Shown here one piece after another: positions 6,831 to 52,427 of a DNA stretch of 64,000 nucleotides. Within the stretch, counting starts at the first letter, position 1; the number at the start of each line of letters is the position of its first letter. The DNA comes from Streptosporangiaceae bacterium (GTDB lineage: Bacteria > Actinomycetota > Actinomycetes > Streptosporangiales > Streptosporangiaceae): contig JAICYD010000006.1 in NCBI GenBank assembly GCA_025934375.1, positions 1-64,000 of the forward strand, given 5' to 3'. The translations under genes were made by a program, and so were the position numbers. The notes below the pieces were generated by a model. It searched no databases. It saw only the letters and a program-made list of their open reading frames with translations, and was not told where the DNA came from.

Positions 6831-8401
6831 ATGGCGCGCGGGTCAGGTTCTTCGGGCGGTTCCTATTCCTACAAGCAGTGGGCTGCTGCTGAGCGTGCCG
6901 CACAGCGGGAACGCGAGCAGAAAAAGAGGCAGGCTGAGAAGGACCGCCTCATGGCGGAGGCGACAGCACGCGATGAGGAAGCCGAAGCCAGGCCGCGGCT
7001 GTTGAGCAGCGGGTCGCTGGGCTGGAAGGCCTGCTGCGGTCCTCCCTAGGACGAGATCCCCGCATTCGCCTCGACTCGCTGAGAATCTCCGCTGTCGTTC
7101 CGCCCCTCGACCTCGGGGCACTGGCGAACCCCGCTCCCGCGCCGCAATGGGCGGACTTTGAACCCGTGCCGCCGTCTGCGCTGGGACGCATGTTCGGCGG
7201 CGGGCAGCGTTATCAGGCCGCCTATGAGGAAGCCGAGCGGGCGTTCGCCAGCACCCAGGCTGACTACCAGCGGCGGGAGGCCGCCAGGCAACTCGGCATC
7301 ACGGCGGCCCGCGCGGAATGGGCCAAGGCAGCGGATGAGGCCAAGCGCCAGGCACAAGCGCACAACGCCCATATCGCCGAGATCGCTGCGGGCTTCCGGG
7401 CACATGACAGGTTCACCGTCAGCGAGTACGTGCAGATGGTCCTGGACAAGTCTCCCTACCCGGAAGGGTTCCCCGCCGAAAGGCACGCCGGGTACGTGCC
7501 CGAGTCCTCGTTGCTGGCGGTGGAGTGGTTCCTTCCGACTTTCGACATCATCCCTGTGCACAAGGCGTTCCGGCATGTCAAGACGCGCAAGGCCGTCGAG
7601 CCCGTCGCCAGGCCGTCGGCCGAGGCGCAGCGGCTTTACAACGCGGTGATCGCACAGGTCGCGGTCCGCACGGTTCGCGAGGTGTTCATGGTCACCCCGC
7701 CGGACATGGTCAGCACAGTCGTGTTCAACGGGCACGTCCATACCGTCGATACGGCTACCGGGCAGAAGATCCAGCCGCCGCTCATCTCAATGCGCGCCAC
7801 GAGGGAGAAGTTCGACGAGCTCGTACTCACCGAGCCACGCTTCGACCCAGTTGCCTCGATCAAACGGCACTTCTTCGCCGCCATCTCGCAGCATCCCGAG
7901 GAGCTGAAGCCGGTCGATCCGGTGATGCCGTTCAGCCAGGCGGACCCGCGCGTCGTCGAGGCCATTGATGTGATCTCCACCCTCGACCAGCGGCCCAACC
8001 TCCTGGAACTCAGCCCCGAGGCATTCGAGTCGTTCGTCCAGAACCTGTTCGCTAAGATGGGATACGAGACCGACCGGTACCGTTCCAGCCGTGACGGCGG
8101 CATCGACTGCATGGCCTATAAGCGCGACCCTGTCGCCCCCATGAAGATCGCCGTCCAGGCCAAGCTCTACACCAAGACCGTCTCGCCGACACACGTCCGC
8201 GACCTGTACGGGACAATGCAGCACGAGGGAGCCACTCTCGGCATCATGATCACCACTTCCGGCTACGGCCCCGGCAGCGTGGAGTTCGCCAACGGCAAGC
8301 CGCTCCACCTCATCGACGGCCCCGGGCTGATCTCCATCTGCCAGGAAAACGACATCCCCGCCCGCATCCTCGGACTCGGCACCCGCAAACGACGGACGTA
8401 A
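6831..8401 (+). pseudogene. Mrr-type restriction endonuclease with a frameshift near its N-terminus
   Basis: From the ATG at 6831 the frame gives SSGGSYSYKQWAAAERAAQR and a charged coiled coil to about 6990. It then shifts by one base and continues as AVEQRVAGLEGLLRSSLGRD through to the stop at 8401. One additional base near 6994-6997 restores one protein of about 523 residues, an architecture I know from actinobacterial Mrr-like enzymes. The C-terminal domain (about 7990-8360) has the PD-(D/E)xK-like signature of this family: SPEAFESFVQNLFAKMGYET, DGGID, then KIAVQAKLY. Mrr enzymes cut modified or foreign DNA. A GTG at 7166 could start a 411-residue protein lacking the coiled coil but keeping the nuclease, so activity is possible. 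Confidence 0.7.
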
Positions 8402-10663: not shown

Positions 10664-11036
10664 GTATTCCCCCTAGCACTGACAATCGAGGCAGGCGCGC
10701 ACGAGGCAGAAAATGTTGCTGGATAACCCTCGTGACCTGGATCTTACGGGGCAAGCTCTCGGTGCCCAGTTGCCGAGAATTGTGCGCCATCTCTGCATGG
10801 GACTCATATGTACTCATACGCGACATAAGTCACATGCTGTTGCGCGAGTCGGCGGGCGTCACGAAAACTAATACCGTCACGGGCGCCTAATTCGCAATTT
10901 ATCGCAACCCACTCCCATGACCTGCACTTTATGGGTCATTGTCGCTAAAGTGATCAACCGGCGTTTGCCGAGCGGGCGCGGAGCCTGCCCGGCGGCGCGT
11001 GAGCGGGAAATGCGACGAGGACCGAGGGGCGGGCAA
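10664..11036. other. Leader region of the defence operon
   Basis: This stretch upstream of the helicase is locally richer in A/T than its surroundings (around 10795-10935). That fits a promoter region. I see no protein-like frame; the open frame continuous with the helicase back to 10917 has no family-like residues. Confidence 0.35.
10917..10939. promoter_or_regulatory. Inverted repeat upstream of the helicase gene
   Basis: ATGACC (10917-10922) and GGTCAT (10934-10939) form an inverted repeat with an 11-nt spacer, about 100 nt before the helicase start. Position and symmetry suit an operator, but no regulator gene is adjacent. Confidence 0.3.
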
Positions 11037-14000
11037 ATGGCGTTGAAGCTGGAAGAGCTCACCCCCGGTGCCCAGGTCACCGGCCTGGTCGGCAATGGCC
11101 AGCCGGCCACCGTGATCCAGGCCCAATGGATCGGCGGCAACGCCCTGCGCCTGACGTACCGCACCGTCGACAGCCGCCTAGACGAGCGCATCCTCTACCG
11201 CGACCACGAGTCCCGCCTGGACCTGCACACCGCCGGGCCGGCCTACGAATTCCGGGCCGACGCCAGGCTGTTCAAGCTGGCGGCCGAGGCGCTGCGGATC
11301 AAGATGGCAGGCCGGTTCGACCCGATGCTCGCCGTCCATACGAGCAACCTGGAGCCGCTGCCGCACCAGATCCAGGCGGTCTACGGCGAACTGCTCAACC
11401 GCACGCCGCTGCGCTATCTCCTGGCCGACGATCCCGGTGCAGGCAAGACGATCATGGCTGGCTTGTACATAAAGGAACTTATGCTCCGCGGTGACCTGGA
11501 GCGCTGCCTGATCGTGGCGCCCGGTGGGCTGGTGGAGCAATGGCAAGACGAGCTGCGGGACAAATTCGCCCTCAATTTCGAGCTGCTGACCAAGGAAATG
11601 GTCAACGCCGACCCGGACGGCAACCCATTCCGCCGGCACCACTTGCTCATCGCAAGGATGGACCAGTTGTCGCGGTCCCAGGAACTGCAACAACACCTGG
11701 ACCACACCGACTGGGACCTGACCGTTGTGGATGAGGCGCACCGGATGGCGGCGCACTATTTCGGCAGCGAGCTGAAGAAGACCCGCCGCTATCAGCTCGG
11801 GGAGCTGCTGGGCCGCAAGTCGCGGCATTTCCTGCTGATGACCGCCACCCCGCACGCGGGGAAGGAAGAGGACTTCCAGCTGTTCCTGGCGCTGCTGGAT
11901 ACCGACCGGTTCGAGGGCCGTTACCGGGACGCGGTGCACACGGTCAGCACCGAGGGCCTGATGCGGCGCATGGTCAAGGAGGACCTGAAGACCTTCGAGG
12001 GTAAGCCGCTGTTCCCGGAGCGGAAGGCCTACACCGTCGGCTACGAGCTTTCGGGTGCGGAGCATGACCTGTACGAGGCGGTCACCCGCTACGTCCGCGA
12101 GGAGATGAGCAACGCCGACAAGCTCAAGGAGCACGGCGATAACAAGCGCGGCTTCACCGTCGGGTTCGCGCTAACCGTCCTCCAACGGAGGCTTGCCTCC
12201 AGCCCCGAGGCAATCCTCAGGAGCCTGGAACGCCGCCACCGGCGCTTGGAGAAGCGCCGCAACGAGATGCGCTACGGCGCAGCGACCGCCGAGGATGACG
12301 ACCTCGCCCGGCGGCTGCGCGACCTCCTCGGCAAGGACCCGACCGAAGCCGACCTCGCCAGCAGCGACGCACTGACCGACAGCAACAACGTCCCCGGCGA
12401 CGAGGCCGAGGAGGCCGAGTCCGAGATCGCGGACGCGGCCACCGCCTCCCGCACGCTTGCCGAGCTGGACAAGGAGCTGGCGATCCTGACCGACCTGATC
12501 GAGCTGGCCCGCCGGGTCCGGCACAGCGGCGAGGACAAGAAGTGGACGCAGCTGCGCGAGCTGCTCACCGCGCCCGGCCAGCACGAGCAGAAGATCATCA
12601 TCTTCACCGAGCACCGCGACACCCTGGAGTACCTGGCCGACCGGATCCGGGGGCTGCTCGGCCGGCACGACGCCGTCGCGACCATCCACGGCGGCGTCAC
12701 CCGCGAGCAGCGCCGCCACGTCACCGAGCTGTTCACCCAGGATTCCAGCCTGCGGGTCCTGGTCGCGACTGACGCGGCCGGGGAGGGCCTGAACCTGCAG
12801 CGCGCCCACCTGATGGTGAACTACGACCTGCCGTGGAACCCGAACCGGATCGAGCAGCGCTTCGGACGCATCCACCGCATCGGCCAGGCCGAGGTCTGCC
12901 ACCTGTGGAACCTGGTCGCCATCGACACCCGTGAGGGCCAGGTCTTCCAGCGCTTGCTGGACAAGATCGAGCAGCAGCGCCAGGCGTATGCGGGCAAGGT
13001 GTTCGACGTGCTGGGCGAGGCGTTCGAGGGCCAGCCGCTGAAGGATCTGCTCATTGAGGCGATCCGCTACGGCGACCGCCCGGACGTGCGGGCGCGCCTC
13101 AACCAGGTCATCGACGCCAAGGTCGGCGAGGGCCTGGACAAGCTCATCGCCGAGCGCGCCGCCCACGCCCAGATCTTCGACGCCGCCGACATAAAGCGAT
13201 GGCGCGCCCGCATGGACGAGGCCAACGCCCGCCGCCTGCAGCCGCACTACATCCGCGCCTTCTTCCTGGAGGCCTTCAAGCAGCTCGGCGGCCGGATCGC
13301 CGAGCGCGAGGCCGGCCGCTACGAGATCCGCCACGTCCCCGCCGACATCCGCGATCACGACCGCGCCGCCGGGACCGCCCCCGCCCCGGTCCTGCCCCGG
13401 TACGAGCGCGTCACCTTCGACCGCGAGCTCATCACCGCCGGCGGCAGGCCGCGCGCGGACCTGCTCGCCCCCGGCCACCCGCTGCTGGACGCGGTCACCG
13501 GCCTGATCACCGAGCGGCACGGCACCCTGCTGAAGCAGGGCGCCATCCTCATCGACCGGCACGACCCGGCCACCGAGCCCCGCCTGCTGGTCGCCGTCAC
13601 CCACGAGATCACCGACGGCCACGACCCCGCCCGCACCGTCTCCAAGCGCTTCGGCTTCGCAGAGATCGACGCCCCCACCACCGAGACGCCAGCACACGAG
13701 GCGCACGCCGCCGGCGAGGCCCGCTACCTCGACTACGAGCCACCATCCGATACCGAACGGAACTTGCTGTCCCCGCTCATTTCAGCCCCCTGGCTGTCGG
13801 CCGGGACGGAGGCGATCGCCCTGGACTGGGCGGTCACCGAGGGCATGCCCGCCGAGCTCATCCGCACCCGGGAAATCGTCACCACCCGCGTCGAGCAGAT
13901 ACGCCGCCTGGTCCGCCAGCGCCTCACCCAGGAGATCAACCACTGGGACTGGCGACACGCCGAGCTGCTTGACCAGCAGGCATCCGGCCGCCCGCTGAAG

Positions 14001-14579
14001 ATGAAGCCTGACACCGCCTACCAGCGCGCCCGCGACCTGGAACGCCGCCTGGACAAACGCCTCGCCGAGCTCGACCTGGACGCAGACCTGATCGCCCGCC
14101 CCCCTGTCATCTCGGCAGGCGCGCTCATCGTGCCGCAAGGACTGCTGACCGCGATCACCGGCACCACCAAGCCGCCCAGGTACGCGGCCGACACCACGGA
14201 GACTGACCGCCGGGCCATCGCCGCCGTCCTCGCCGCCGAACGCGCCCTCGGCCGTAACCCCCGCGAGATGCCCCACAACAACCCCGGGTACGACATCGTC
14301 TCCACCTGCTACGACGGCCACCTGATCTACATCGAGGTCAAGGGCCGCATCGAAGGCGCCGAAGACTTTTGGGTCACCCGCACCGAGGCCCTGCACGGCA
14401 AGAACGCCGGACTTGGATCACGGCTCGCCCTGGTCTCGGTCTCGCCGCTCGGTCCCGAACTGGACATCGCCCGCTACATCACGGACCCGTTCCGCGACGT
14501 GGACTTCGGCGACTTCAACGCCACCGGCCTCGGCGGCAACTGGACCAAAGAATGGGAACGAGGCGGAACTCCGGCATGA
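11037..14579 (+). CDS. Large SF2 helicase with DUF3883-like C-terminus (defence system helicase)
   Basis: The start is placed at the ATG of MALKLEELTPG; upstream in-frame codons to 10917 do not look like the family. A short N-terminal domain precedes the SNF2/SF2 core: Walker A LLADDPGAGKTIMAGLYIKE, DEAH box TVVDEAHRM, motif III MTATPHAGKEEDF, and motifs V/VI DAAGEGLNLQRAHLMVNYDL and RIEQRFGRIHRIGQ. The C-terminal 110 residues (GYDIVSTCYDGHLIYIEVKG onward) match DUF3883, a restriction-fold-like domain with E-x-K. About 1,180 residues, full length. Such helicases are found with DUF1156 methylases and DUF499 ATPases in defence loci. The gene overlaps the methylase by 4 nt, so the two are translationally coupled. 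DNA translocation or remodelling during phage restriction is the inferred role. Confidence 0.9.
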   Translation: MALKLEELTPGAQVTGLVGNGQPATVIQAQWIGGNALRLTYRTVDSRLDERILYRDHESRLDLHTAGPAYEFRADARLFKLAAEALRIKMAGRFDPMLAVHTSNLEPLPHQIQAVYGELLNRTPLRYLLADDPGAGKTIMAGLYIKELMLRGDLERCLIVAPGGLVEQWQDELRDKFALNFELLTKEMVNADPDGNPFRRHHLLIARMDQLSRSQELQQHLDHTDWDLTVVDEAHRMAAHYFGSELKKTRRYQLGELLGRKSRHFLLMTATPHAGKEEDFQLFLALLDTDRFEGRYRDAVHTVSTEGLMRRMVKEDLKTFEGKPLFPERKAYTVGYELSGAEHDLYEAVTRYVREEMSNADKLKEHGDNKRGFTVGFALTVLQRRLASSPEAILRSLERRHRRLEKRRNEMRYGAATAEDDDLARRLRDLLGKDPTEADLASSDALTDSNNVPGDEAEEAESEIADAATASRTLAELDKELAILTDLIELARRVRHSGEDKKWTQLRELLTAPGQHEQKIIIFTEHRDTLEYLADRIRGLLGRHDAVATIHGGVTREQRRHVTELFTQDSSLRVLVATDAAGEGLNLQRAHLMVNYDLPWNPNRIEQRFGRIHRIGQAEVCHLWNLVAIDTREGQVFQRLLDKIEQQRQAYAGKVFDVLGEAFEGQPLKDLLIEAIRYGDRPDVRARLNQVIDAKVGEGLDKLIAERAAHAQIFDAADIKRWRARMDEANARRLQPHYIRAFFLEAFKQLGGRIAEREAGRYEIRHVPADIRDHDRAAGTAPAPVLPRYERVTFDRELITAGGRPRADLLAPGHPLLDAVTGLITERHGTLLKQGAILIDRHDPATEPRLLVAVTHEITDGHDPARTVSKRFGFAEIDAPTTETPAHEAHAAGEARYLDYEPPSDTERNLLSPLISAPWLSAGTEAIALDWAVTEGMPAELIRTREIVTTRVEQIRRLVRQRLTQEINHWDWRHAELLDQQASGRPLKMKPDTAYQRARDLERRLDKRLAELDLDADLIARPPVISAGALIVPQGLLTAITGTTKPPRYAADTTETDRRAIAAVLAAERALGRNPREMPHNNPGYDIVSTCYDGHLIYIEVKGRIEGAEDFWVTRTEALHGKNAGLGSRLALVSVSPLGPELDIARYITDPFRDVDFGDFNATGLGGNWTKEWERGGTPA

Positions 14580-17338
14580 CCAAGGACCTGTGGTACAAGC
14601 CAAAGCTCATCGAGGTCGCTCTTCCCCTTGAGGACATCAACCGCGAGTCAGCCCGCGAGAAGTCGATTCGGCATGGCCACCCGTCCACCCTGCACCTGTG
14701 GTGGGCCCGGCGTCCGTTGGCGGCCTGCCGGGCGGTGCTGTTCGCCCAACTGGTCGATGACCCGAGCGCGCATCCCGACAAGTTCCCGACCGAACTGGAC
14801 CAGCAAGCCGAGCGGGATCGGCTGCACAAGATCATCTCCCGCCTCGTCGTCTGGGAGAACATCCACGACGAGAAGCTGCTCAAGGAGGCCCACGAAGAGA
14901 TCCTCAAGTCCACCGGCGGTAATCCGCCGCCGATCTTGGACCCCTTCGCCGGCGGCGGCTCCATCCCGCTGGAAGCCCAGCGCTTGGGCCTAGAGGCGCA
15001 CGCGTCGGACCTGAACCCAGTCGCGGTGCTGATCAATAAGGCTCTGATCGAGATCCCGCCGAAGTGGGCGGGACATCCACCGGTGTTCCCTGGTGCTGCG
15101 GCTGAGAAGATCTCCTGGCCACGCGCGACGGGCATCGCCGAGGATGTGCGCCGGTACGGGGAGTGGATGCATACCGAAGCTGTGAAGCGGATAGGCCATC
15201 AGTACCCTACGGTCGAAGTCGCTGGAGTCGAATCTTCGGTGATTGCCTGGTTCTGGGCGCGCACCGTCACCTGCCCAAACCCGGCGTGTGCCGGACGGAT
15301 GCCTCTAGTTCGATCATTCTGGCTCTGCAATAAGGCAGGCAGAGAGCGTTATATTAAACCGATCCCGGTCCCAGAAGAGAAACGTGTGCGCTTTGAAATA
15401 GGCGGTCCAGAAGGGGATCCCCGAGAGAGCACCGTTTCTGGGCGCACTGGAGCCGTATGCCTGCTCTGCAATACGCCGGTTCCAATGTCATATATCCGTG
15501 GCGAAGCCAGGGCTGGTCGTATGGATCCTCAGCTGATGGCAATGGCGGCAGAAGGTAAGCGCCAACGCTATTATGTTGCCGCGAACGAGGGACACGAGAA
15601 GGCCGCCGACGTGTCGCGGCCAGTCGATATGCCTGACGCCGAGATGCCTAACAATCCGCGCTGGTTCTCTCCGCCAGCCTACGGAATGACCGGGTATGCC
15701 GACCTCTTTACTGCGCGCCAAGCGGTCGCGTTGACGACATTCTCGGACCTTATCGGGGAAGCCCGCGCCAAGGTGGCAAATGATTCTGGGAACTCTGGGT
15801 ACGCTGACGCCATTGCAACTTACCTAGCATTCGCGATCTCGAAATTGGCTGACCGGGGATCATCGATATGCTCATGGGTGATACAACGCGAGTCGAACAG
15901 AAACACGTTCGCCCGTCAAGCGATCCCGATGACATGGGATTTCATAGAGATGAATCCGCTGTTGCGTGGCACGGGCAGCTTTGCAGGGGCGGCTGCATGG
16001 ACAATTGAAAGCCTTGAGGGTGCCGCGACGAGGGGAGCCGCTCGCGTCATGCAGGCTGACGCTGCAACATGTGCCACCGGCGGCGCAATTGTCTCCACGG
16101 ACCCTCCGTACTACGATAATATCGGATACGCCGATCTGTCTGACTTCTTTTATGTTTGGCTTCGACGATCGCTGCGCGACTATTACCCCGATCTCCTCGC
16201 TACGATGCTGACGCCCAAGGCAAAAGAACTCATAGCTACTCCGTATCGATTCAATGGAAGCAAGAATAAAGCGGAAGAGTTCTTCGAGGACGGCTTCTTG
16301 AGGACTTTTACTCGGATCCGAGAAGAGCAGCCAAAAGGCTTCCCGGCTACGGTCATCTATGCATTCAAGCAATCGGAAACCACAGATGAAGGCGAGGCGT
16401 CAACCGGCTGGGAACGGATGCTTAGCGGATTGCTTGAAGCCGGGTACTCTGTCACTGCCACTTGGCCAATTCAAACCGAACGGGCCACCCGCTCGATCGA
16501 TATCGGTACGAACGCCTTGGCGTCATCCATCGTGCTTGCCTGTCGCCCGCGTCCCGCCGATGCCGCGTTCACCGATCGGCGGGGGTTCATCGACACGCTG
16601 CAGGTCGAGTTCCCGGAGGCGCTGCGGAGGCTGGAGCAAGGCAAGATCGCGCCGGTGGACCTTCGACAGGCGGCGATCGGGCCAGGGATGGCGGTCTTCT
16701 CGCGGTATGCGCGGGTCAACGAGCCGGATGGGTCGCCCATGCGCGTGCGGGCCGCGCTCTCGCTGATCAATCAGGTGCTTGATGAGAAGCTGTCGCAGCT
16801 TGTCGGGGACGTGTCGGCCGATACCCGGTTCTGCGTGGAGTGGTTCAAGCAGTACGGGTTTGAGGAAGGGCCGTTTGGCACCGCGGACACGCTGGCGCGC
16901 GGCGTCGATACCGGGGTGGACGGACTCGTTCGGGCCGGGATCCTGAGGTCGGCTGCGGGGAAGGTGAAGCTCCGTTCCGTTGCGGATATTCCGGATGCTT
17001 ATGATCCGGCGGCCGACGAGCGAATGTCGGAGTGGGAGGTCTGCCTGCACCTCGCCAAGCAGCTCGATGAGCACGGGACGGACGCGGCGGCGCGGCTGCT
17101 GGCAGCGGCGCGGGATGTGCCGGGGATCGACCTGGACGACGTGCGGGAGCTGGCTTACCTCTTGTACTCGATCGCGGAGAAGAGGAACTGGGCCGAGGTC
17201 GGGCTGCTGTTCAACAACCTCGGCACGTTGTGGATGGACCTGGAGGACACCGCGCGGCGGGTGCCGTCTGGCGCTCATGCGGGCGGGCAGGGGCAGCTGA
17301 CCCTGGAGTTCGGGAGTGACGACGATGGCGGCGAGTAA
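14576..17338 (+). CDS. DUF1156-type adenine/cytosine DNA methyltransferase
   Basis: 920 residues from the ATG at 14576 (MTKDLWYKPKLIEVALPLED). Residues 20-50 hold the DUF1156 signature (NRESAREKSIRHGHPSTLHL, WWARRPLAACRAVLFAQL). The SAM-binding motif DPFAGGGSIPLEAQRLGLEA and catalytic motif IV STDPPYYDNIGYADLSDFFY mark an amino-methyltransferase. Between them, CPNPAC and CLLC pairs look like a zinc ribbon. The C-terminal 250 residues are helical and probably contact partners. It is the middle gene of three, overlapping both neighbours. It presumably marks self DNA. The part from about 15165 to 16540 has visibly lower GC and different codon choice than the rest, suggesting segmental replacement. 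Confidence 0.9.
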   Translation: MTKDLWYKPKLIEVALPLEDINRESAREKSIRHGHPSTLHLWWARRPLAACRAVLFAQLVDDPSAHPDKFPTELDQQAERDRLHKIISRLVVWENIHDEKLLKEAHEEILKSTGGNPPPILDPFAGGGSIPLEAQRLGLEAHASDLNPVAVLINKALIEIPPKWAGHPPVFPGAAAEKISWPRATGIAEDVRRYGEWMHTEAVKRIGHQYPTVEVAGVESSVIAWFWARTVTCPNPACAGRMPLVRSFWLCNKAGRERYIKPIPVPEEKRVRFEIGGPEGDPRESTVSGRTGAVCLLCNTPVPMSYIRGEARAGRMDPQLMAMAAEGKRQRYYVAANEGHEKAADVSRPVDMPDAEMPNNPRWFSPPAYGMTGYADLFTARQAVALTTFSDLIGEARAKVANDSGNSGYADAIATYLAFAISKLADRGSSICSWVIQRESNRNTFARQAIPMTWDFIEMNPLLRGTGSFAGAAAWTIESLEGAATRGAARVMQADAATCATGGAIVSTDPPYYDNIGYADLSDFFYVWLRRSLRDYYPDLLATMLTPKAKELIATPYRFNGSKNKAEEFFEDGFLRTFTRIREEQPKGFPATVIYAFKQSETTDEGEASTGWERMLSGLLEAGYSVTATWPIQTERATRSIDIGTNALASSIVLACRPRPADAAFTDRRGFIDTLQVEFPEALRRLEQGKIAPVDLRQAAIGPGMAVFSRYARVNEPDGSPMRVRAALSLINQVLDEKLSQLVGDVSADTRFCVEWFKQYGFEEGPFGTADTLARGVDTGVDGLVRAGILRSAAGKVKLRSVADIPDAYDPAADERMSEWEVCLHLAKQLDEHGTDAAARLLAAARDVPGIDLDDVRELAYLLYSIAEKRNWAEVGLLFNNLGTLWMDLEDTARRVPSGAHAGGQGQLTLEFGSDDDGGE

Positions 17339-20300
17339 CCGGGACCGGATCGACGCTGGCTTGCACCTGCTGGGCAAGGGGCTGGTGCCGTTTATTGACC
17401 CGGTGATGGCCGGGTCGGTTCCGGCGGACCGGGACTGGGTGGAGCTGCTGGACGCGCGGAACAATTCGCGTCGTGGTACCGGCTACCGCAACTCCAAGGA
17501 TGACCCGCGGTTCCTGCTGTCGGTGCTCACCGATGAGTGGCGGCTGTTTAAGGACAAGCTGTCGCGGGCGGAGCAGTCGTTTGCCAGTGAGCTGCGGGAT
17601 ACCGCGAACAAGTGGGCGCACGGGGAGAAGTTCAGCGGGGACGACACCTACCGGGCGCTGGACACGATGGAGCGGCTGCTGGCGGCGGTGGACGCGGTCG
17701 CGGAGGCGGATGCGGTGCGCAAGCTGCGACGGGACGCGCAGCAGGCGGCGTTCAATTCCGAGACGCGTAAGGCCGTTGCGGTGATTACTGGGGTTGAGGG
17801 TACGGGGTTGAAGCCGTGGCGGGAGGTGATCGTGCCGCAGGCTGATGTGCGGGACGGGAACCTGCGCGGCGCGGAGTTCGCGGCCGACCTGTTCTACGTC
17901 ACCGTGGGGCAGGCGTCGCGGGAGTACCTGGATCCGGTGGAGTTCTTCCGCCGGACGTACCTGACCGACGGGCTGCGGGACCTGCTGGCGTGGACGGCGC
18001 GGCGGGTTGGCGGGGACCGGAATGCGCCGCCGGTGGTCAACTTGCAGACGAACTTCGGCGGTGGCAAGACCCACTCGATGCTGGCGCTGTACCACCTGCT
18101 GTCCGGTACCGCGCTGACGTCGTTCCCGGATGAGCTGCAGCGGCTGATCGCCGACGCCGGGATTGGCGCACTGCCGGCGACGCGGCGGGCAGTGCTGGTG
18201 GGCAACCACATCAAGGCCGGGGCGCCGTCGGAGAAGCCCGACGGGACGAAGGTTTCCACGCTGTGGGGTGAGCTGGCCTGGCAGCTCGGCCTGGCCGCGG
18301 GAGGCGAGGTCGAGGCGCGGCGGGCGTTCGAGATGGTGCGGGACGCTGACGAGACGAGGTCGAACCCGGCGGACGCGCTGGGGCGGCTGATCAGCGCGTA
18401 CGCGCCGTGCCTGATCCTGATCGATGAGTGGGTGGCGTACGGGCGGCAGCTGTACGGGCGCGAGGACCTGGCCGGCGGGACCTTCGACACGCAGTTCACG
18501 TTCGCGCAGACGCTGACCGAGGCGGTCAAGGCGGTGCCCGGTGCGATGCTGGTGGTCTCGATTCCGGCCTCGTCGGCGTCACCGTCGGCCGAGGAGGCGG
18601 AGCGCGGCGCGACCGACATCGAGGTCGGGGGCATGAACGGCGCGGAAGCGCTGCGGCGGCTGCAGCAGGTGATCCACCGGGTGGCGGACCAGTGGCGGCC
18701 GGCGACGCCAGTGGAGTCGTTCAAGATCGTCCGGCAGCGGCTGTTCGAGGAGCCCTCGGCTGACGCGCAGGTGGACATCGCGGCGGTGGCGCAGCGGTTC
18801 ACCGACTTCTACGCCCGGCACCGGGCCGACTTCCCGGCCGGGGTGGCGGAGCCGTCGTATGAGGAGCGGATCCGGGAGGCCTACCCGATCCACCCGGAGC
18901 TGTTCGACCGGCTGTACCAGGACTGGTCCACGCTGGACCGGTTCCAGCGGACCCGGGGCGTGCTGCGGCTGATGTCAGCGGTGATCCACACGCTGTGGCT
19001 GCGGGATGACCCGGCGCCGATCATCGTGCCCGGCGGGGTGCCGCTGGAGGCCGATGAGGTGCAGACAGAGATCACCCAGTACCTGGAGGACCGGTTCAAG
19101 CCGGTCATCGACACCGACATCGACGGCGCCACCTCGACCCCGGCGGTCCTGGACGCCTCGCGGACGGCGTACTGGCAGCGCCGCATCACCCGGCGGATCG
19201 CCCGGTCGATCTTCCTCGGCTCGGCCGCCACGCTGAAGGCCGCGCACAAGGGCGCCGAGCAGCCCCGCATCTGGCTCGGCATGGCCGTGCCCGGCGACAC
19301 CGTGGGGAACTACGCGGGCGCCCTGCACCTGCTATCAGAGCAGGCGACCTACCTGTACAGCGAGGGATCGCGGTACTGGTACGACGTCGCCGCCTCCGTG
19401 GCGAAGATGGCCCGCGAGCAGGCCGACCGGCTGCGCGACCGGCCCGAGGAAACCTGGGCCGAGATCCTGCGCAGGCTGACCCGCCGCGAGGGGCCGGTGC
19501 GCGGCATGTTCGCCCGGGTTCAGGTTGGCCCCGAGAAAAGCGACGACATCCCCGATGAGGCCGCCGTCCGGCTGGTGGTCATGCACCCACGCTTCCGGCA
19601 CGCCCGCGGCGAAACCACCTCGTCGGACGCCGCCGTGTGGGCGCTGGCGGCGGCGCAGGGGCGCGGGACCGCGCACCGGCTGAACCGGAACATGATCGTG
19701 TTCCTCGCCGTCGATGCCCGACGGTACGAGAGCCTCGATGAGGCGGTGCGCCAGTACCTGGCGTGGACCGACCTTGGCTCCGAGCAGCGGATCATCGACC
19801 TTGACCTGCCGCCGCAGCAGGCCGCCCAGGCCCGCAAGCGGCTCATCGACGCCGACCGCACGGTGGACCTGCGGATCTCCGACAGCTATCAGTGGCTGCT
19901 GGTCCCGGTGCCGGGCGGCGGCGGCGTCGGCCTGGCCATCGATGAGCACCGGGCCGACACCGCCAAGGAGCGCCTAGCCGAGCGCGCCTCGGACAAGCTC
20001 CGCGCCGTTGACCTGCTGCGAGTGGTCCAGGGACCGCAGAACATCCGGCTGGACCTGGACAAGTACCTGGCCTCCGTCTGGTCACGGGACGGGCACATCC
20101 CGGTCGGGCAGCTGTGGAAGTACTACTGCGAGTACCCCTACCTGCCCCGGCTGGCCGAGCGCGCGGTGCTGGAGAACGGCATCGTGAAGGTCTTCGACCA
20201 GGTGGTGTGGGAGCAGGACGGGTTCGCGGTCGCATCCGGGTTCGACCCGGGTTCTGGCCGTTGTGTCGGGCTGGCGCTCCCGGCGGAGAACGCGGCCCCG

Positions 20301-20837
20301 CCGATCAGCGACACGACGCTGCTGGTTCATCCGAGCCGCGCCATCGCCCAGCGGGCCGCTGAACGAGTCGCGGCCGAGGCCGCCCAGCGCGCCGCCGAGG
20401 AAGCGGCGAGTGCGGCTGCGGCCGGGGCGGGCACGGCGGGCGACGGTTCGGGGACGGAAGGAAGGTCGGGAACGGGAAGCGGGACGGCTGCAGGCGGCGG
20501 GGTGGCTACCACGGTCGGGTTCACCACCACGGTCGTGCCCGACCCGGCTGGTACCGGCGCGCACGGCATGGATTCACCGCCCAAGCCTCGGCCCCCCGCG
20601 GCCAAGACCCGCTACTACGGCCGGGCCGACCTGGACCCGGAGCGCTACGCCCGCGACTTCAACCGCCTCAGCGCCGAGGTCATCCAGCACCTGGCCGCCC
20701 TGGATGGCGTCGACCTGGAGATCTCGATCGAGATCACCGCGATCAAGCACGACGGCTTCCCGGACGACAAGATGCGCATCGTCTCCGAGAACGCCCGCAC
20801 CCTGAAGTTCGCCGAATCCGACTTCGAGGACAGGTAA
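17325..20837 (+). CDS. DUF499-type P-loop ATPase (PglY/BrxC-like)
   Basis: About 1,170 residues. The ATG at 17325 (MAASNRDRIDAGLHLL) is preferred over the GTG three codons upstream; either way it overlaps the methylase end. Walker A is QTNFGGGKTHSMLALYHLL and Walker B CLILIDEWVAYGRQL, the DUF499 pattern shared with PglY/BrxC. The C-terminus has an Ala/Gly-rich linker (about 20360-20560) and a small domain (YYGRADLDPERYARDFNRLS, then MRIVSENARTLKF) that is standard for stand-alone DUF499 proteins. It is intact and full length. In BREX/Pgl-like systems such ATPases couple target recognition to restriction or modification; that role is inferred here from the neighbours. Confidence 0.9.
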   Translation: MAASNRDRIDAGLHLLGKGLVPFIDPVMAGSVPADRDWVELLDARNNSRRGTGYRNSKDDPRFLLSVLTDEWRLFKDKLSRAEQSFASELRDTANKWAHGEKFSGDDTYRALDTMERLLAAVDAVAEADAVRKLRRDAQQAAFNSETRKAVAVITGVEGTGLKPWREVIVPQADVRDGNLRGAEFAADLFYVTVGQASREYLDPVEFFRRTYLTDGLRDLLAWTARRVGGDRNAPPVVNLQTNFGGGKTHSMLALYHLLSGTALTSFPDELQRLIADAGIGALPATRRAVLVGNHIKAGAPSEKPDGTKVSTLWGELAWQLGLAAGGEVEARRAFEMVRDADETRSNPADALGRLISAYAPCLILIDEWVAYGRQLYGREDLAGGTFDTQFTFAQTLTEAVKAVPGAMLVVSIPASSASPSAEEAERGATDIEVGGMNGAEALRRLQQVIHRVADQWRPATPVESFKIVRQRLFEEPSADAQVDIAAVAQRFTDFYARHRADFPAGVAEPSYEERIREAYPIHPELFDRLYQDWSTLDRFQRTRGVLRLMSAVIHTLWLRDDPAPIIVPGGVPLEADEVQTEITQYLEDRFKPVIDTDIDGATSTPAVLDASRTAYWQRRITRRIARSIFLGSAATLKAAHKGAEQPRIWLGMAVPGDTVGNYAGALHLLSEQATYLYSEGSRYWYDVAASVAKMAREQADRLRDRPEETWAEILRRLTRREGPVRGMFARVQVGPEKSDDIPDEAAVRLVVMHPRFRHARGETTSSDAAVWALAAAQGRGTAHRLNRNMIVFLAVDARRYESLDEAVRQYLAWTDLGSEQRIIDLDLPPQQAAQARKRLIDADRTVDLRISDSYQWLLVPVPGGGGVGLAIDEHRADTAKERLAERASDKLRAVDLLRVVQGPQNIRLDLDKYLASVWSRDGHIPVGQLWKYYCEYPYLPRLAERAVLENGIVKVFDQVVWEQDGFAVASGFDPGSGRCVGLALPAENAAPPISDTTLLVHPSRAIAQRAAERVAAEAAQRAAEEAASAAAAGAGTAGDGSGTEGRSGTGSGTAAGGGVATTVGFTTTVVPDPAGTGAHGMDSPPKPRPPAAKTRYYGRADLDPERYARDFNRLSAEVIQHLAALDGVDLEISIEITAIKHDGFPDDKMRIVSENARTLKFAESDFEDR

Positions 20838-20910: not shown

Positions 20911-22713
20911 TCACGGCTGCCGGGCCGCCGCAAGCAGCCGGTCGAAGGCCTCGGCAAGCTTTTCCGGTATGTCCTCCCGGCTGGTGGCGAGTTCTGCGTG
21001 GCGGGCCATGAGGTCTGGCTTGGCGGTTGAGCCGCCCATCCCTCCCGAGACGAGGTCGCTGACTTTCTTGCTGAACTTTCCAGCACAACGGAGGGCAGCG
21101 AACTGCTCTGGGAGCCAGGGGTTCCCGTCGCGCTGCGGCCAGTGCAGGTTCGCCAGTTCGGTCCACTGCTCGTCGCTGAAGAGTTCCTCTAGCTCGTTGG
21201 GGTCACCAAGGTAGTCGATCCGGTTGGTGGGGACACCGTGGTTGTTCAACTCGCGCTCTGAGAACAGTTTCGGCTGATCACGGAGGCTGTCCTTGTCCAC
21301 GATGACGTAGACCGGCTTGCCCATCCCCGTGAGGTACCTGGTCAGCTTGAGCGCGTTGGTGTTGTTACCGGATTCCCAAATGATGATCCCGGCCTCACGA
21401 AGCCGTACCCCGGTCGCAAGATGGAACATGCGGGGGAAGGCGCGCTTCTCCGACGACCCCTCAACGAGCAGGAAGCAGCGCTCGAACAAGATGGAGCTGG
21501 TGGACAGGCCTAGCTGTTCCGCGAGATTGCTGGCGAACGTGTCGAGGTCATCGTCCGTTCCATCCCGGGGCAGCCTGCGGATCCTCGTTTCCTGGCTGGT
21601 CCGTTCCAGATGGACTACGTCTTCCAGGGGGACCCGGTCGATGATCTGCACCGAGTGGGTGGCGATGACCATGGCAACGTTGCCACCCGGCGTGCACTGG
21701 CCCTGGGCCCGGTCCATGAACTCGCGCTGTCGAACGTAGTCGAGTGAGGTGTCGGGCTCGTCATAGGCGATAACGACAGACCGTCCAGGATCGCCGCTTC
21801 GAGTGACCTCCTGCCGCTCCCACTCCCAGACCGCCTGGATGACCTGCTTGCGGCGACCCGTTCCCGACTGCTCGAACGGGATACGCTGCCCGTCATGACT
21901 GGCGAACAGCTGTGCGCTGGACACAGGGTCGCGGAACGAGACCTGCGGGATGACCTCGACGCCGGAGATTCCGTCGACTCCAGCCTCGATCGCCGTGCAT
22001 AGTCCCAGGGCGGCGGCCTGCAGAGCCGACTCGGTCTCGGCCTGCAGTTTTACAACGGACGCCCGGAACTCTGGGCGGGTGAGGATCTCCCGGAACGCGG
22101 ACCTGAGCGCACCAAGGACCGTATCGTTGACGTCGGCCCCCTCGATCCCGGCGCGGTGCAGGTAGACGGGCAGCCGACTGGTGACATCCTCTCCCGCGCC
22201 TTCCCAGCCCAGGCACGTCGGCTGGCCAGCGATGAACTGTTCCAGCGGCACAAGGAAACTCTCCTTGGACGTCCTCGGCCCTGTAATTGAGATCCCGTGC
22301 GCGTCGGCGATGTCTCGCAACTCGCCGATCAGCTTTCTGCGGAGGTTGCGCAGGGATTCGTCCACGGGAACATCTCGCTCCACCTGGTACAATGCCGAGC
22401 GCTCGCCGCGGGTGGCGACCCGCCGGATGCGCGCGACGGCGGCCAGGTCCGTGGCCTCCTGATCGGCGGTGGATAGTGCGAACTGCCCGGTGACGATGAT
22501 CTCCGGGTGAGGCGATGAATCGTCGCCGCTGACCTCGTTCGGAAAGTCCGAATCAGCCATCTCCCGGGATGTCAGCAGGAATCCGAGGGCATCCAGGACT
22601 GAGCTTTTCCCGCTGTCGTTCCGCCCGGTGAGTACCGTCGGGGAACGCACTGGAATGGCTGTCACCTCGGCCAGGGACCGGAACCCGGAAATGGAAAATG
22701 AGACTAGCTGCAT
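20911..22713 (-). CDS. OLD-family ATP-dependent nuclease (ABC-type ATPase plus TOPRIM)
   Basis: 600 residues, start MQLVSFSISGFRSL. The N-terminal ATPase has Walker A LTGRNDSGKSSVLDALGFLL, signature-like FEQSGTGRRKQVIQAV, Walker B VVIAYDEPDTSLDY and the H-loop MVIATHSVQII. The C-terminal TOPRIM has FLLVEGSSEKRAFPRMF (Glu), then YVIVDKDSLRDQP, where the usual D-x-D reads DKD. This is class-1/2 OLD architecture; such nucleases act in phage exclusion and as effectors of two-gene systems such as Gabija. Here no UvrD partner is adjacent. It converges on the helicase-methylase-ATPase operon, so it may be a separate defence gene or an associated effector. Confidence 0.88.
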   Translation of the reverse strand: MQLVSFSISGFRSLAEVTAIPVRSPTVLTGRNDSGKSSVLDALGFLLTSREMADSDFPNEVSGDDSSPHPEIIVTGQFALSTADQEATDLAAVARIRRVATRGERSALYQVERDVPVDESLRNLRRKLIGELRDIADAHGISITGPRTSKESFLVPLEQFIAGQPTCLGWEGAGEDVTSRLPVYLHRAGIEGADVNDTVLGALRSAFREILTRPEFRASVVKLQAETESALQAAALGLCTAIEAGVDGISGVEVIPQVSFRDPVSSAQLFASHDGQRIPFEQSGTGRRKQVIQAVWEWERQEVTRSGDPGRSVVIAYDEPDTSLDYVRQREFMDRAQGQCTPGGNVAMVIATHSVQIIDRVPLEDVVHLERTSQETRIRRLPRDGTDDDLDTFASNLAEQLGLSTSSILFERCFLLVEGSSEKRAFPRMFHLATGVRLREAGIIIWESGNNTNALKLTRYLTGMGKPVYVIVDKDSLRDQPKLFSERELNNHGVPTNRIDYLGDPNELEELFSDEQWTELANLHWPQRDGNPWLPEQFAALRCAGKFSKKVSDLVSGGMGGSTAKPDLMARHAELATSREDIPEKLAEAFDRLLAAARQP

Positions 22714-22894: not shown

Positions 22895-23320
22895 TCAGTC
22901 CGTGAGGCTCCCAGCCTGACCGAAGAGCCGTTCCCGTTCGGCGGCGGCGGCGAGCCGTGCTAGCTCCGCCTCGGACACGTCAACAGCGTCTGGTGCCTGG
23001 TGCGCGATCACGCTGTCACGGGCGAACTCGTCGAAGAGTTGCTGCTTGTCTGCGACGATATCGCGGATGCGCTCATCCACGCTGTTTTCTGTCAGCAGCC
23101 GGTGGACTTGGACCGTGCTGGTCTGGCCCACGCGATGAGCTCTCGTGATCGCTTGCGATTCCGTGGCCGGCTTCAGCTGGGGCTCGCAGATGACGACGAC
23201 CGACGCGGACCGGATGTTGAGCCCGACGCCACCCGCGGTGATCTGGCGCGACGAGCACGGCGCCGTGTCCCGCCTGCCGATCGCCGAGGTCGCGGGGCGG
23301 CGCGCAGGGCGGTGGCGTGG
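22895..23320 (-). pseudogene. SNF2 helicase C-terminal fragment, frameshifted
   Basis: Minus-strand frames give, in order, GAVLVA, then after a one-base shift QITAGGVGLNIRSASVVVIC, EPQLKPATESQAITRAHRVG and QTSTVQVHRLLTENSVDERI. This is motif V/VI of SNF2 ATPases, followed by a short acidic tail ending at 22895. The rest of the enzyme is absent. It is a relic beside the OLD gene and shows that a second helicase-type gene was once present in this accessory region. Confidence 0.6.
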
Positions 23321-49304: not shown

Positions 49305-52300
49305 ATGCTGGTCATTCACGGAATCTGGGCGCACGGCGCGCCGCACGTGTGGGCGGAGGATCCCGCGTTGCCCGCGCAGGCCCCCCCGCGCGCCGGGCGG
49401 CCCTCCAGGGCGCCCCGCTCGCATCCGTTCGCCGTGCCGCCCGGCCGCCTGGCGGACGCGCTGGCCGAGGCAGGCGCGGGGGACCTGGCCCGCAAGGCAG
49501 TGGACGACGAGCTCACCATGCACCTGCCATCGCTGCCCAACGCTCCCCTCGCGTCGCCGGAGCTGATTCGCCGTCCGCCGGTGACGGGCAGTCCGGACGC
49601 CAGGCCCCCGGGCCGCCCGGTTCTGGCGGCCTGGCGCGTACCGGTCCTGACCTTCGAAGCCGGGACCGCGGCGTCAGTGCTGACCACGCTGGGTGACCGC
49701 CCGCCCGGTGAGCTGATCATGAGCGGGTCGATCGGCTACTGGGCGGCCGTCGCGCGGTTCGCCGCCGACCTGGTCACGCGGGGTAGCGTCCTGCCGGCGC
49801 TGGCCGAGGAGGCTGGCGGCCACGCCGCCCGGTGGCGGCCGGTGCTGTCGTCCGCCGATGTCCACCGGGCCCGGGAGCTCGCCGCCGCGATGCCGCCCGC
49901 CTGCCGGGCCGCCGAGGGGGCGGCGGAAGGAACGGCGCCCGGGCCGCTCCTGGCGGGCGCGCTCGACGCCCTAGTGGACGCGTCCGCGCGCGCCCGCCTG
50001 CCCAGTGGCCTCCTGCCCGCGCGCCGAGGTCGTCGTCCAGCCCGCGTTCCGCTAGCGGAACGGACCGTGGCTTCGCTGACCGCGGCTGACCCCGCGGTGG
50101 AGGTGGCGACCCCGCAGGACGAGCTTGAGGCCCGCGAGCTGAGCGCCGCGCTGGCTGGCTGGCGGGCGAGTGCCTCGCTTCCGGGCGGCCCCGTGCGTAC
50201 CTGCTTCCGCCTGGTGGAACCAAGCGCACCCGCTTCATCCGCGTGGCGCGTCGAGATCGCGCTGCAGTCGGCCGAAGACCCGAGCCTGATGCTGTCCGCC
50301 GCCGACGTGTGGGACGGAGCCGGATACGGCTGGATCACGGGCGAATCTCATCCGGAAGAGGCACTGCTGGCCGGCCTCGGTACGGCTGCCCGCCTGTTCC
50401 CCGCTCTCGACGGCGCGCTCCGCGACGCGGTACCGGCCCAGGTCACGCTGGACACGGCGGGCGCGCTTGAGTTCCTGCGGGAAACCGGCCCGCTGCTGTC
50501 CGGCGCCGGATTCGGCGTGCTCCTGCCCGACTGGGCGCGCAAGGCGCGCCTTGGCCTCAAGCTGACCACCAGGTCGTCATCCAGCGGATCGTCGGCCTCG
50601 GCCAGGCAGGGCCAGTTCGGAATGCAGGACCTCGTGGACTTCCGGTATGAGCTGGCCATCGGCGAGGACGTGCTGTCAGCGGAAGAGTTCGCTGAGCTCG
50701 CGGAGCTGAAGGTTCCGCTCGTCCGCATCAGAGGTCAGTGGGTCGAGCTCGACCACCGCCACCTGAAGGCGGCACTGGAGTTCCTTGAGCGCCAGCAGTC
50801 CGGGACGATGGCCGCGGCCGAGGTCCTCGAAGCGGTGATCGGCACTGGCGGCCGGCGCGGCGAGCTGCCCTTGGCCGCCGTCGATGCCGACGGGTGGCTC
50901 GGCGACCTGCTGTCCGGGCAGGCCGACCGGCGCCTGGTGGCGATGAATACCCCCGGGGATTTCCGCGGCACGCTGCGCCCCTACCAGCAGCGCGGCCTGT
51001 CGTGGCTGTCCTTCCTTGGCCGGCTCGGCCTCGGCGCGGTCCTCGCCGACGACATGGGACTCGGCAAGACCGTCCAGCTGCTGTCGCTCCTGTGGGCGGA
51101 ACATCAGGAGCGGGCCTGCGCCCCACCCGCCCCGGATGCGCCACCCGGCCCCACCTTGCTGGTGTGCCCGATGTCGCTGACCGGGAACTGGCAGCGGGAG
51201 GCGGAGCGGTTCACGCCCGGCCTGACGGTGGTTGTCCACCACGGGGCCGGCCGGCTGGCGGGCGCGCCGCTGCTGGCCGCGCTGACCGCCGCTGACCTGG
51301 TGATCACCACCTACCAGACAGCCGCGAGGGACCTGGCGGTGTTGTCGCAGGTGCGCTGGGCGCGGGTGGCCTGCGACGAGGCGCAGGCGATCAAGAATCA
51401 CCTCAGCCAGCAAGCGAAGGCCGTTCGGGCGCTCCCGGCCAGGTCGCGGATCGCGCTGACCGGGACCCCGGTGGAGAACCAGCTGTCCGAGCTGTGGTCG
51501 ATCATGGAGTTCGCCAACCCCGGCCTGCTCGGGTCCGAGAAGGCCTTCCGTGAGCGGTACGCGGTGCCGATCGAGCGGCACTCCTGCGATGAGGCGGCGC
51601 GGGAACTGCGCCGGGTCACCCAGCCATTCGTGCTGCGCCGCCTGAAGACCGACAAGTCGATCATCTCCGACCTTCCTGAGAAGCAGGAGATGAAGGTCTG
51701 GTGCAACCTCACCCCGGAGCAGGCCAGCCTCTACGCCGCCACCGTCACTGACATGCTGTCCCGGATCGATGACGCGGCGGACGACATCACCCGGCGCGGC
51801 CTCGTGCTCGCCACGATGGCCAAGCTCAAGCAAGTCTGCAACCACCCAGCCCACCTGCTCGCCGACGGTTCCCGGCTCACCGGGCGGTCGGGCAAGCTGG
51901 CCCGGCTGGAGGAGCTGAGTGAGGAGATAGCCGCCGACGGAGACAAGGCGCTGTGCTTCACGCAGTACGCCGAGTTCGGCCGGATGCTGCAGCCGTACCT
52001 GGCCGCGCGGACCGGCTGCCCGGTGCTCTTCCTGCACGGCGGCACCTCCCGCAAGCAACGGGACGCCATGGTCGCCCGATTCCAGGAATCGGACGAGCCG
52101 ATGCTGTTCCTGCTCTCGCTGAAGGCGGGTGGCACCGGGCTGAACCTGACCGCGGCGAACCACGTCATCCACATCGACCGCTGGTGGAACCCGGCTGTGG
52201 AGGACCAGGCCACTGACCGGGCGTTCCGCATCGGCCAGCGCCGGGACGTCCAGGTCCGCAAGTTCGTCTGCGTCGGCACCCTGGAGGAGCGGATCGACGC

Positions 52301-52427
52301 CATGATCGAGCAGAAGAAGGCACTCGCCGAGCAGATCGTCGGCACAGGCGAGAACTGGCTGGCCGAGTTGTCCGCGTCCGCCTTGCGAGAGGTCCTCGCG
52401 CTATCCCCCGAGGCGGTCTCCGCATGA
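49305..52427 (+). CDS. SNF2-family DEAD/DEAH-box helicase
   Basis: 1,040 residues. An N-terminal actinobacterial extension with the DUF3670-like region (LVRIRGQWVELDHRHLKAAL) is followed by the ATPase core: RPYQQRGLSWLSFLGRLGLG, VLADDMGLGKTVQLLSLLWA (Walker A), ARVACDEAQAIKNH (DEAQ), IALTGTPVENQLSELWSIME, and motifs V/VI LKAGGTGLNLTAANHVIHID and DQATDRAFRIGQRRDVQV. It is a double-stranded DNA translocase. It is always found with the SWIM protein encoded next; the pair is conserved across actinobacteria and its role is not established. Overlaps the SWIM gene by 4 nt. Confidence 0.92.
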   Translation: MLVIHGIWAHGAPHVWAEDPALPAQAPPRAGRPSRAPRSHPFAVPPGRLADALAEAGAGDLARKAVDDELTMHLPSLPNAPLASPELIRRPPVTGSPDARPPGRPVLAAWRVPVLTFEAGTAASVLTTLGDRPPGELIMSGSIGYWAAVARFAADLVTRGSVLPALAEEAGGHAARWRPVLSSADVHRARELAAAMPPACRAAEGAAEGTAPGPLLAGALDALVDASARARLPSGLLPARRGRRPARVPLAERTVASLTAADPAVEVATPQDELEARELSAALAGWRASASLPGGPVRTCFRLVEPSAPASSAWRVEIALQSAEDPSLMLSAADVWDGAGYGWITGESHPEEALLAGLGTAARLFPALDGALRDAVPAQVTLDTAGALEFLRETGPLLSGAGFGVLLPDWARKARLGLKLTTRSSSSGSSASARQGQFGMQDLVDFRYELAIGEDVLSAEEFAELAELKVPLVRIRGQWVELDHRHLKAALEFLERQQSGTMAAAEVLEAVIGTGGRRGELPLAAVDADGWLGDLLSGQADRRLVAMNTPGDFRGTLRPYQQRGLSWLSFLGRLGLGAVLADDMGLGKTVQLLSLLWAEHQERACAPPAPDAPPGPTLLVCPMSLTGNWQREAERFTPGLTVVVHHGAGRLAGAPLLAALTAADLVITTYQTAARDLAVLSQVRWARVACDEAQAIKNHLSQQAKAVRALPARSRIALTGTPVENQLSELWSIMEFANPGLLGSEKAFRERYAVPIERHSCDEAARELRRVTQPFVLRRLKTDKSIISDLPEKQEMKVWCNLTPEQASLYAATVTDMLSRIDDAADDITRRGLVLATMAKLKQVCNHPAHLLADGSRLTGRSGKLARLEELSEEIAADGDKALCFTQYAEFGRMLQPYLAARTGCPVLFLHGGTSRKQRDAMVARFQESDEPMLFLLSLKAGGTGLNLTAANHVIHIDRWWNPAVEDQATDRAFRIGQRRDVQVRKFVCVGTLEERIDAMIEQKKALAEQIVGTGENWLAELSASALREVLALSPEAVSA

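Follow-up and report, generated by a model that had tools for sequence, protein, structure and literature searches.

A conserved HEPN domain without its catalytic arginine in the HmaC ATPase of an actinobacterial Hma operon

The 64,000-nucleotide stretch of Streptosporangiaceae bacterium DNA analysed here (the window; assembly GCA_025934375.1, contig JAICYD010000006.1, positions 1-64,000) carries, at positions 11037-20837, an operon that is, as judged from its sequence, a complete copy in an actinomycete of the known Hma system, an identity carried by matches to all three of its protein profiles. The new detail is that the HEPN domain fused to the HmaC ATPase lacks the arginine of its catalytic motif and yet is conserved by evolution.

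Results and Discussion

The Hma operon

Three plus-strand genes for a helicase, a methylase and an ATPase lie together in a single overlapping operon. The first, hmaA (11037-14579), encodes an SF2/Snf2 helicase of 1180 residues with a C-terminal DUF3883/NOV_C nuclease domain, recognised by PADLOC, by the Pfam families Helicase_C, SNF2-rel_dom and NOV_C, and by its motifs. It is followed by hmaB (14576-17338), for a DUF1156 amino-methyltransferase of 920 residues (PADLOC; PF06634, E 2.9e-32; motif columns), and by hmaC (17325-20837), for a HEPN-DUF499 AAA+ ATPase of 1170 residues (PADLOC; PF04465; PF18731). The first-pass annotation of this DNA had described three intact, overlapping genes of Hma type, and both points hold: the frames are open over 1180, 920 and 1170 codons, hmaA and hmaB share 4 nt (ATGA) and hmaB and hmaC 14 nt, and the PADLOC profiles score 1414.8 (HmaA), 1049.7 (HmaB) and 856.7 bits (HmaC), far above chance level. 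Its suggestion that the trio is selectively maintained is likewise borne out by comparison with the nearest homologous operon, from the same genus (L122), in which the ratio of nonsynonymous to synonymous substitution rates (dN/dS) is 0.31 for HmaA, 0.14 for HmaB and 0.41 for HmaC, indicating that purifying selection maintains all three genes.

Relatives were gathered with the HEPN family profile and by scans of genome contigs. The helicase, methyltransferase and ATPase motifs are retained in dozens of loci from several phyla, and the gene order is mostly A-B-C. The HEPN_Swt1 domain is present in 33 of the 343 family genomes and in two of the eight genus genomes (the window genome included), a patchy distribution of the sort expected of defence genes. 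At four loci (L018, L020, L026 and L126) hmaB and hmaC are separated by 2.8-6.8 kb, so that extra genes may be embedded in those operons; Septu embedded in Hma has been noted (PMC12255303).

The system belongs to a kind already described. The trio received the name Hma in 2021 (Payne et al., PMC8565338), and a fusion of HEPN to DUF499, alongside an SNF2-DUF3883 helicase, had been described in 2013 (Anantharaman et al., PMC3710099). A 2026 survey (PMC12839542) classes the Hma trio as the Type-1 DUF499-centred BREX-related (BR) system and counts 2446 taxa that have it. In 1370 of these a HEPN domain is fused to the N-terminus of the ATPase, and in 79% the helicase ends in an active nuclease. The window operon agrees with Hma, as defined by the PADLOC HmaA, HmaB and HmaC profiles, in all three genes, their order and their families. 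It differs in that the HmaC profile match begins only at residue 162 of the window protein, past the HEPN domain, which thus falls outside the PADLOC definition of Hma. With the HEPN-fused Type-1 BR systems as presented in the survey it shares the HEPN-DUF499 ATPase, the Snf2 helicase with a C-terminal PD-(D/E)xK nuclease, and the DUF1156 N6-methyltransferase with a nested recognition region and four cysteines; as in those systems, no DUF3780 gene was found among the scanned neighbours. Whereas the survey treats HEPN as an endoRNase, the window HEPN domain has alanine in place of the arginine. The same fusions define the Ava_2192 family, a bacterial family marked as active in the table of PMC3710099, from which the window member departs in that its Rx4-6H motif has no Arg. 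Type-3 BREX has a homologous ATPase, methyltransferase and helicase (BrxC, BrxXI and BrxHII) according to the survey, but no PglZ or other BREX gene was found among the open reading frames (ORFs) scanned, and the first-pass annotation was right to report no PglZ in the operon. Type-2 BR systems differ in having a DUF3780 gene and a helicase with an N-terminal HKD nuclease; HmaA has no HKD match, and again no DUF3780 gene is seen among the scanned neighbours.

The HEPN domain of HmaC

A Swt1-like HEPN domain occupies HmaC residues 12-123 (17358-17693, plus strand; PF18731, E 4e-29, and alignments). HEPN RNases bear an Rx4-6H motif. RNase L, RloC and PrrC cannot act without its His, and RNase L and PrrC require the Arg as well (PMC3710099). 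The window protein departs from this motif: in place of R-N-x-x-x-H it reads A94-N-K-W-A-H99, with the arginine replaced by alanine (codon GCG) and the histidine retained. The first-pass annotation had stated that all catalytic motifs are kept. This is correct for the helicase, methyltransferase and ATPase; the HEPN domain and its missing arginine were overlooked, and the account of the effectors given there is therefore incomplete.

Position 94 is Arg in 75 HmaC homologs, Gly in eight, Ala in three (the window included) and Leu in two, and position 99 is His in nearly all. The two proteins with Leu94 (L021 and L092) also lack His99, and His99 is present in every row with Gly or Ala at 94. These Gly/Ala rows all come from actinobacterial relatives in the window's own class. 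In a quick tree of the ATPase part, with HEPN left out, the arginine changes three times. A more careful tree with extra rows gives two changes, its bootstrap trees two or three, and none of 200 bootstraps a single change, although the well-supported branches of that tree alone require just one, and several of its branches are long. The number of changes in actinobacterial lineages, two to three, is therefore uncertain.

Shorter, non-HmaC proteins of the same family also carry Arg-less Swt1-like HEPN domains; five short actinobacterial examples (L013, L110, L111, L112 and L113) have the same LR..GN...H pattern.

The survey proposes the HEPN layer of Type-1 BR systems as a last-resort RNase (PMC12839542); a term search of its main text finds no mention of inactive HEPN versions. 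Such a role is doubtful here, or else catalysis has been rewired, since the arginine is lost, selection persists, and an Arg or Lys lies one helical turn upstream. Among Arg-less relatives, dN/dS for the HEPN domain is 0.03, 0.29, 0.16 and 0.14, near the values for the remainder of HmaC, and we conclude that the domain is kept by evolution. Most likely, judging from these patterns, the canonical RNase step has been lost or strongly reduced, and the domain is retained for dimerisation, for binding RNA or a partner, or for use of R91. That some actinobacterial Hma systems repeatedly lost the HEPN arginine while keeping the histidine and selection, leaving a domain that either serves without catalysis, in sensing or assembly, or has an R-x7-H active site, of a kind not described for any HEPN family in the literature covered, is a proposal that we put forward tentatively, at slightly under even odds.

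A possible but rather doubtful alternative is that the domain continues to cut RNA, the catalytic arginine having shifted one turn upstream to R91 (K91 in relatives), with His99 kept and a suicide RNase layer intact. Residues 81-98 form a single helix in the AlphaFold2 (AF2) model, so that positions 91 and 94 are one turn apart, and the retention of His99 in all Gly/Ala-94 rows is consistent with activity. A basic residue, Arg or Lys, occupies position 91 in each of the 20 Arg-less, His-keeping HEPN domains, against 57 of 97 Arg-bearing ones (Fisher p 1.4e-4, uncorrected for kinship); PMC3710099 also describes one HEPN family that keeps the His, loses the Arg and may employ other basic residues. 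However, R91 is already common in Arg-bearing relatives and may predate the loss of the arginine and carry no meaning, so that this enrichment, in rows that are related, is suggestive only. The seven residues between R91 and H99 exceed the four to six described, and the KEN domain and PrrC needed the Arg for RNase activity (PMC3710099).

It is improbable that the domain is a decaying leftover without a role. The loss of the catalytic arginine, and an identity between the window and its nearest relative (L122) of 61% in HEPN compared with 83% in the ATPase part, would fit such decay, but the dN/dS values among Arg-less relatives resemble those of the remaining HmaC, His99 is retained, and the reading frame is open across the HEPN domain in the Arg-less hmaC genes examined.

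The ATPase part of HmaC

The DUF499 region that follows (PF04465, E 4.5e-21) has an invariant Walker A motif, GGGKTH, and Walker B motif, IDE, both in agreement with the family consensus. The C-terminus was inspected for the RRM-like domain characteristic of Hma and Type-1 BR ATPases; in the AF2 model it comprises a disordered linker (residues 1032-1092) followed by helices at 1108-1124 and 1147-1159, with no strands called. PDB sequence searches with the HmaC profile, and with that of the HmaA nuclease domain, gave no matches.

The helicase and nuclease domains of HmaA

Helicase motifs I, II, III, V and VI are all found in HmaA and agree with the family consensus. The first-pass annotation proposed that the DUF3883 domain supplies the cut and that its fold be predicted. 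The C-terminal 151 residues (1030-1180; 14124-14576, plus strand), modelled with AF2 from 48 homologs at a predicted local distance difference test (pLDDT) score of 88.6, are predicted to adopt a PD-(D/E)xK fold that matches the archaeal Hjc resolvases (Z 11.3 over 106 residues, 2.7 A) and the SPARDA nuclease (Z 11.0). A helix Glu, D1086 of a G-Y-D motif, and E1100 and K1102 of E-V-K are invariant across 49 aligned rows. Helicases of Hma and Type-1 BR systems are further characterised by a Tudor domain at the N-terminus and an inactive restriction endonuclease domain in the interior; the model covers the C-terminal 151 residues of HmaA. The predicted fold and the invariant E, D and ExK make it well supported that this tail is a nuclease able to cut, an idea already in print: DUF3883 was proposed as a novel restriction endonuclease domain in 2013 (PMC3710099) and is termed an active one in the 2026 survey (PMC12839542). 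The survey also cites a 2024 study that reports antiphage defence by the Snf2-fused nuclease domain, so that the earlier description of the mechanism as largely untested is partly outdated.

Upstream of hmaA, about 85 nt before the gene, is a perfect 7-bp inverted repeat, CACTTTA-14-TAAAGTG (10925-10952), which could be an operator or could have arisen by chance.

The methylase and specificity segment of HmaB

Motif I of HmaB, DPFAGGGS (residues 122-129), and motif IV, DPPY (509-512), match the family consensus, and are separated by residues 130-506, which include four cysteines (233, 238, 295 and 298). These form a probable zinc site; they fit the four-Cys zinc finger that, according to the survey, lies in the nested recognition region of a related group, the Type-3 BREX methylases (PMC12839542). 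The variable middle part, residues 200-665 (15173-16570, plus strand), contains most of the nested target-recognition region together with motif IV and is distinguished by its low GC content at third codon positions (GC3), 0.60 compared with 0.84-0.85 in the remainder of HmaB and 0.91 in HmaA and HmaC. Among 35 loci whose HmaC GC3 is at least 0.8, this segment has a lower GC3 than HmaC in 34, with a median difference of -0.21. Compared with L122, synonymous sites are saturated in this segment but not in HmaA or HmaC. Recognition modules imported repeatedly would account for both the low GC3 and the saturated sites, and the pattern fits a specificity that is often exchanged, as it is in classical restriction-modification systems; alternatively, codon constraint on the segment may be the cause of its low GC3. 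In four operons (L132, L133, L135 and L136) HmaA is about 62% identical to that of the window and HmaB just 36-39%, which suggests exchange of the whole methylase gene.

Proposed mechanism

We consider it probable, at roughly 0.77, that the operon encodes an antiphage system that resembles restriction-modification and is of the Hma, or Type-1 DUF499-centred BR, kind. HmaB would methylate a base amino group, probably that of N6-adenine, at a site picked by its variable nested recognition region, and thereby mark host DNA as self. HmaC, as a DUF499 AAA+ ATPase, would join HmaA in a complex on invading DNA that is unmodified; the helicase of HmaA would translocate along or open this DNA, and its PD-(D/E)xK domain would cut it. 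Ordinarily the HEPN domain of HmaC would add a second effector, one that cuts RNA. The variable HmaB specificity segment, with its lower GC3, is as expected of a restriction-modification recognition module.

Some points weigh against this scheme. The PADLOC paper terms HmaB a 5-methylcytosine (m5C) enzyme (PMC8565338), a label in conflict with the DPPY motif and with the hidden Markov model description, which indicate an amino-methylase. R91 may replace the HEPN arginine, in which case RNase activity would persist. Finally, a whole-chain PDB fold search with the HmaC AF2 model gave no match at E <= 0.001, and the arrangement of the ATPase is accordingly taken from its family.

It is unlikely that abortive infection or host-directed nicking, and not the cutting of unmethylated phage DNA, is the main mode of action of the trio, since a methyltransferase with a variable recognition region suits discrimination of self from non-self. 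Placement in a different system, for example DISARM or BREX, for which HmaA's additional matches to DrmD (382 bits) and BrxH (324 bits) might speak, is extremely improbable and is rejected at the level of family assignment, because the HmaA profile scores 1415 bits, the DrmD score lies under the NCBIfam cut-off of 610, and no PglZ, DrmA, DrmB or BrxC (DUF6079) gene was found among the ORFs scanned, a subset of those in the window.

Genomic surroundings

Genes flanking the operon had been taken for remnants. This applies to a 78-residue SNF2 helicase tail (22895-23131, minus strand; DpdE/DrmD-like), an apparent gene remnant, but not to two others that lie outside the operon and are open. Convergent with hmaC is a gene for an OLD-family ATPase-TOPRIM nuclease (20911-22713, minus strand; AAA_15, OLD-like_TOPRIM), open over 600 codons and with a P-loop, an acidic Walker B and TOPRIM motifs; its best PADLOC matches, GajA and Old, are weak. 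No UvrD-type partner for it was recognised among the scanned neighbours, and no OLD match was found in any other Hma locus examined for a conserved OLD-Hma pairing. Some 2.6 kb upstream of the operon is an open gene for an Mrr-type IV (methyl-directed) restriction endonuclease of 411 residues (7166-8401, plus strand; Mrr_cat, E 9.4e-30; PADLOC mREase_IV, 251 bits) with a D...QxK motif, possibly shortened at its N-terminus, as the PADLOC profile aligns only from position 140 of 544. With OLD-family and Mrr-type genes beside a 78-residue remnant, the region is a small defence-gene cluster with some debris.

Farther away, a 1040-residue SNF2 helicase with DUF3670 (49305-52427, plus strand) matches the ZorD and DpdE helicase domains and is probably a chromosomal actinomycete SNF2 helicase, not part of a defence operon. 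Synteny of the right flank within the genus amounts to scattered pieces in one genome, and the boundaries of an insertion could not be placed.

Biological significance

Hma/BR systems are widespread (2446 Type-1 taxa in the survey, PMC12839542), yet what the HEPN domain does on their ATPase is so far a proposal. Natural Arg-less HEPN domains in otherwise intact operons permit a direct test of RNA cutting in defence: if Arg-less versions protect as well as Arg-bearing ones, the role of HEPN would not be, or would not solely be, that of an RNase.
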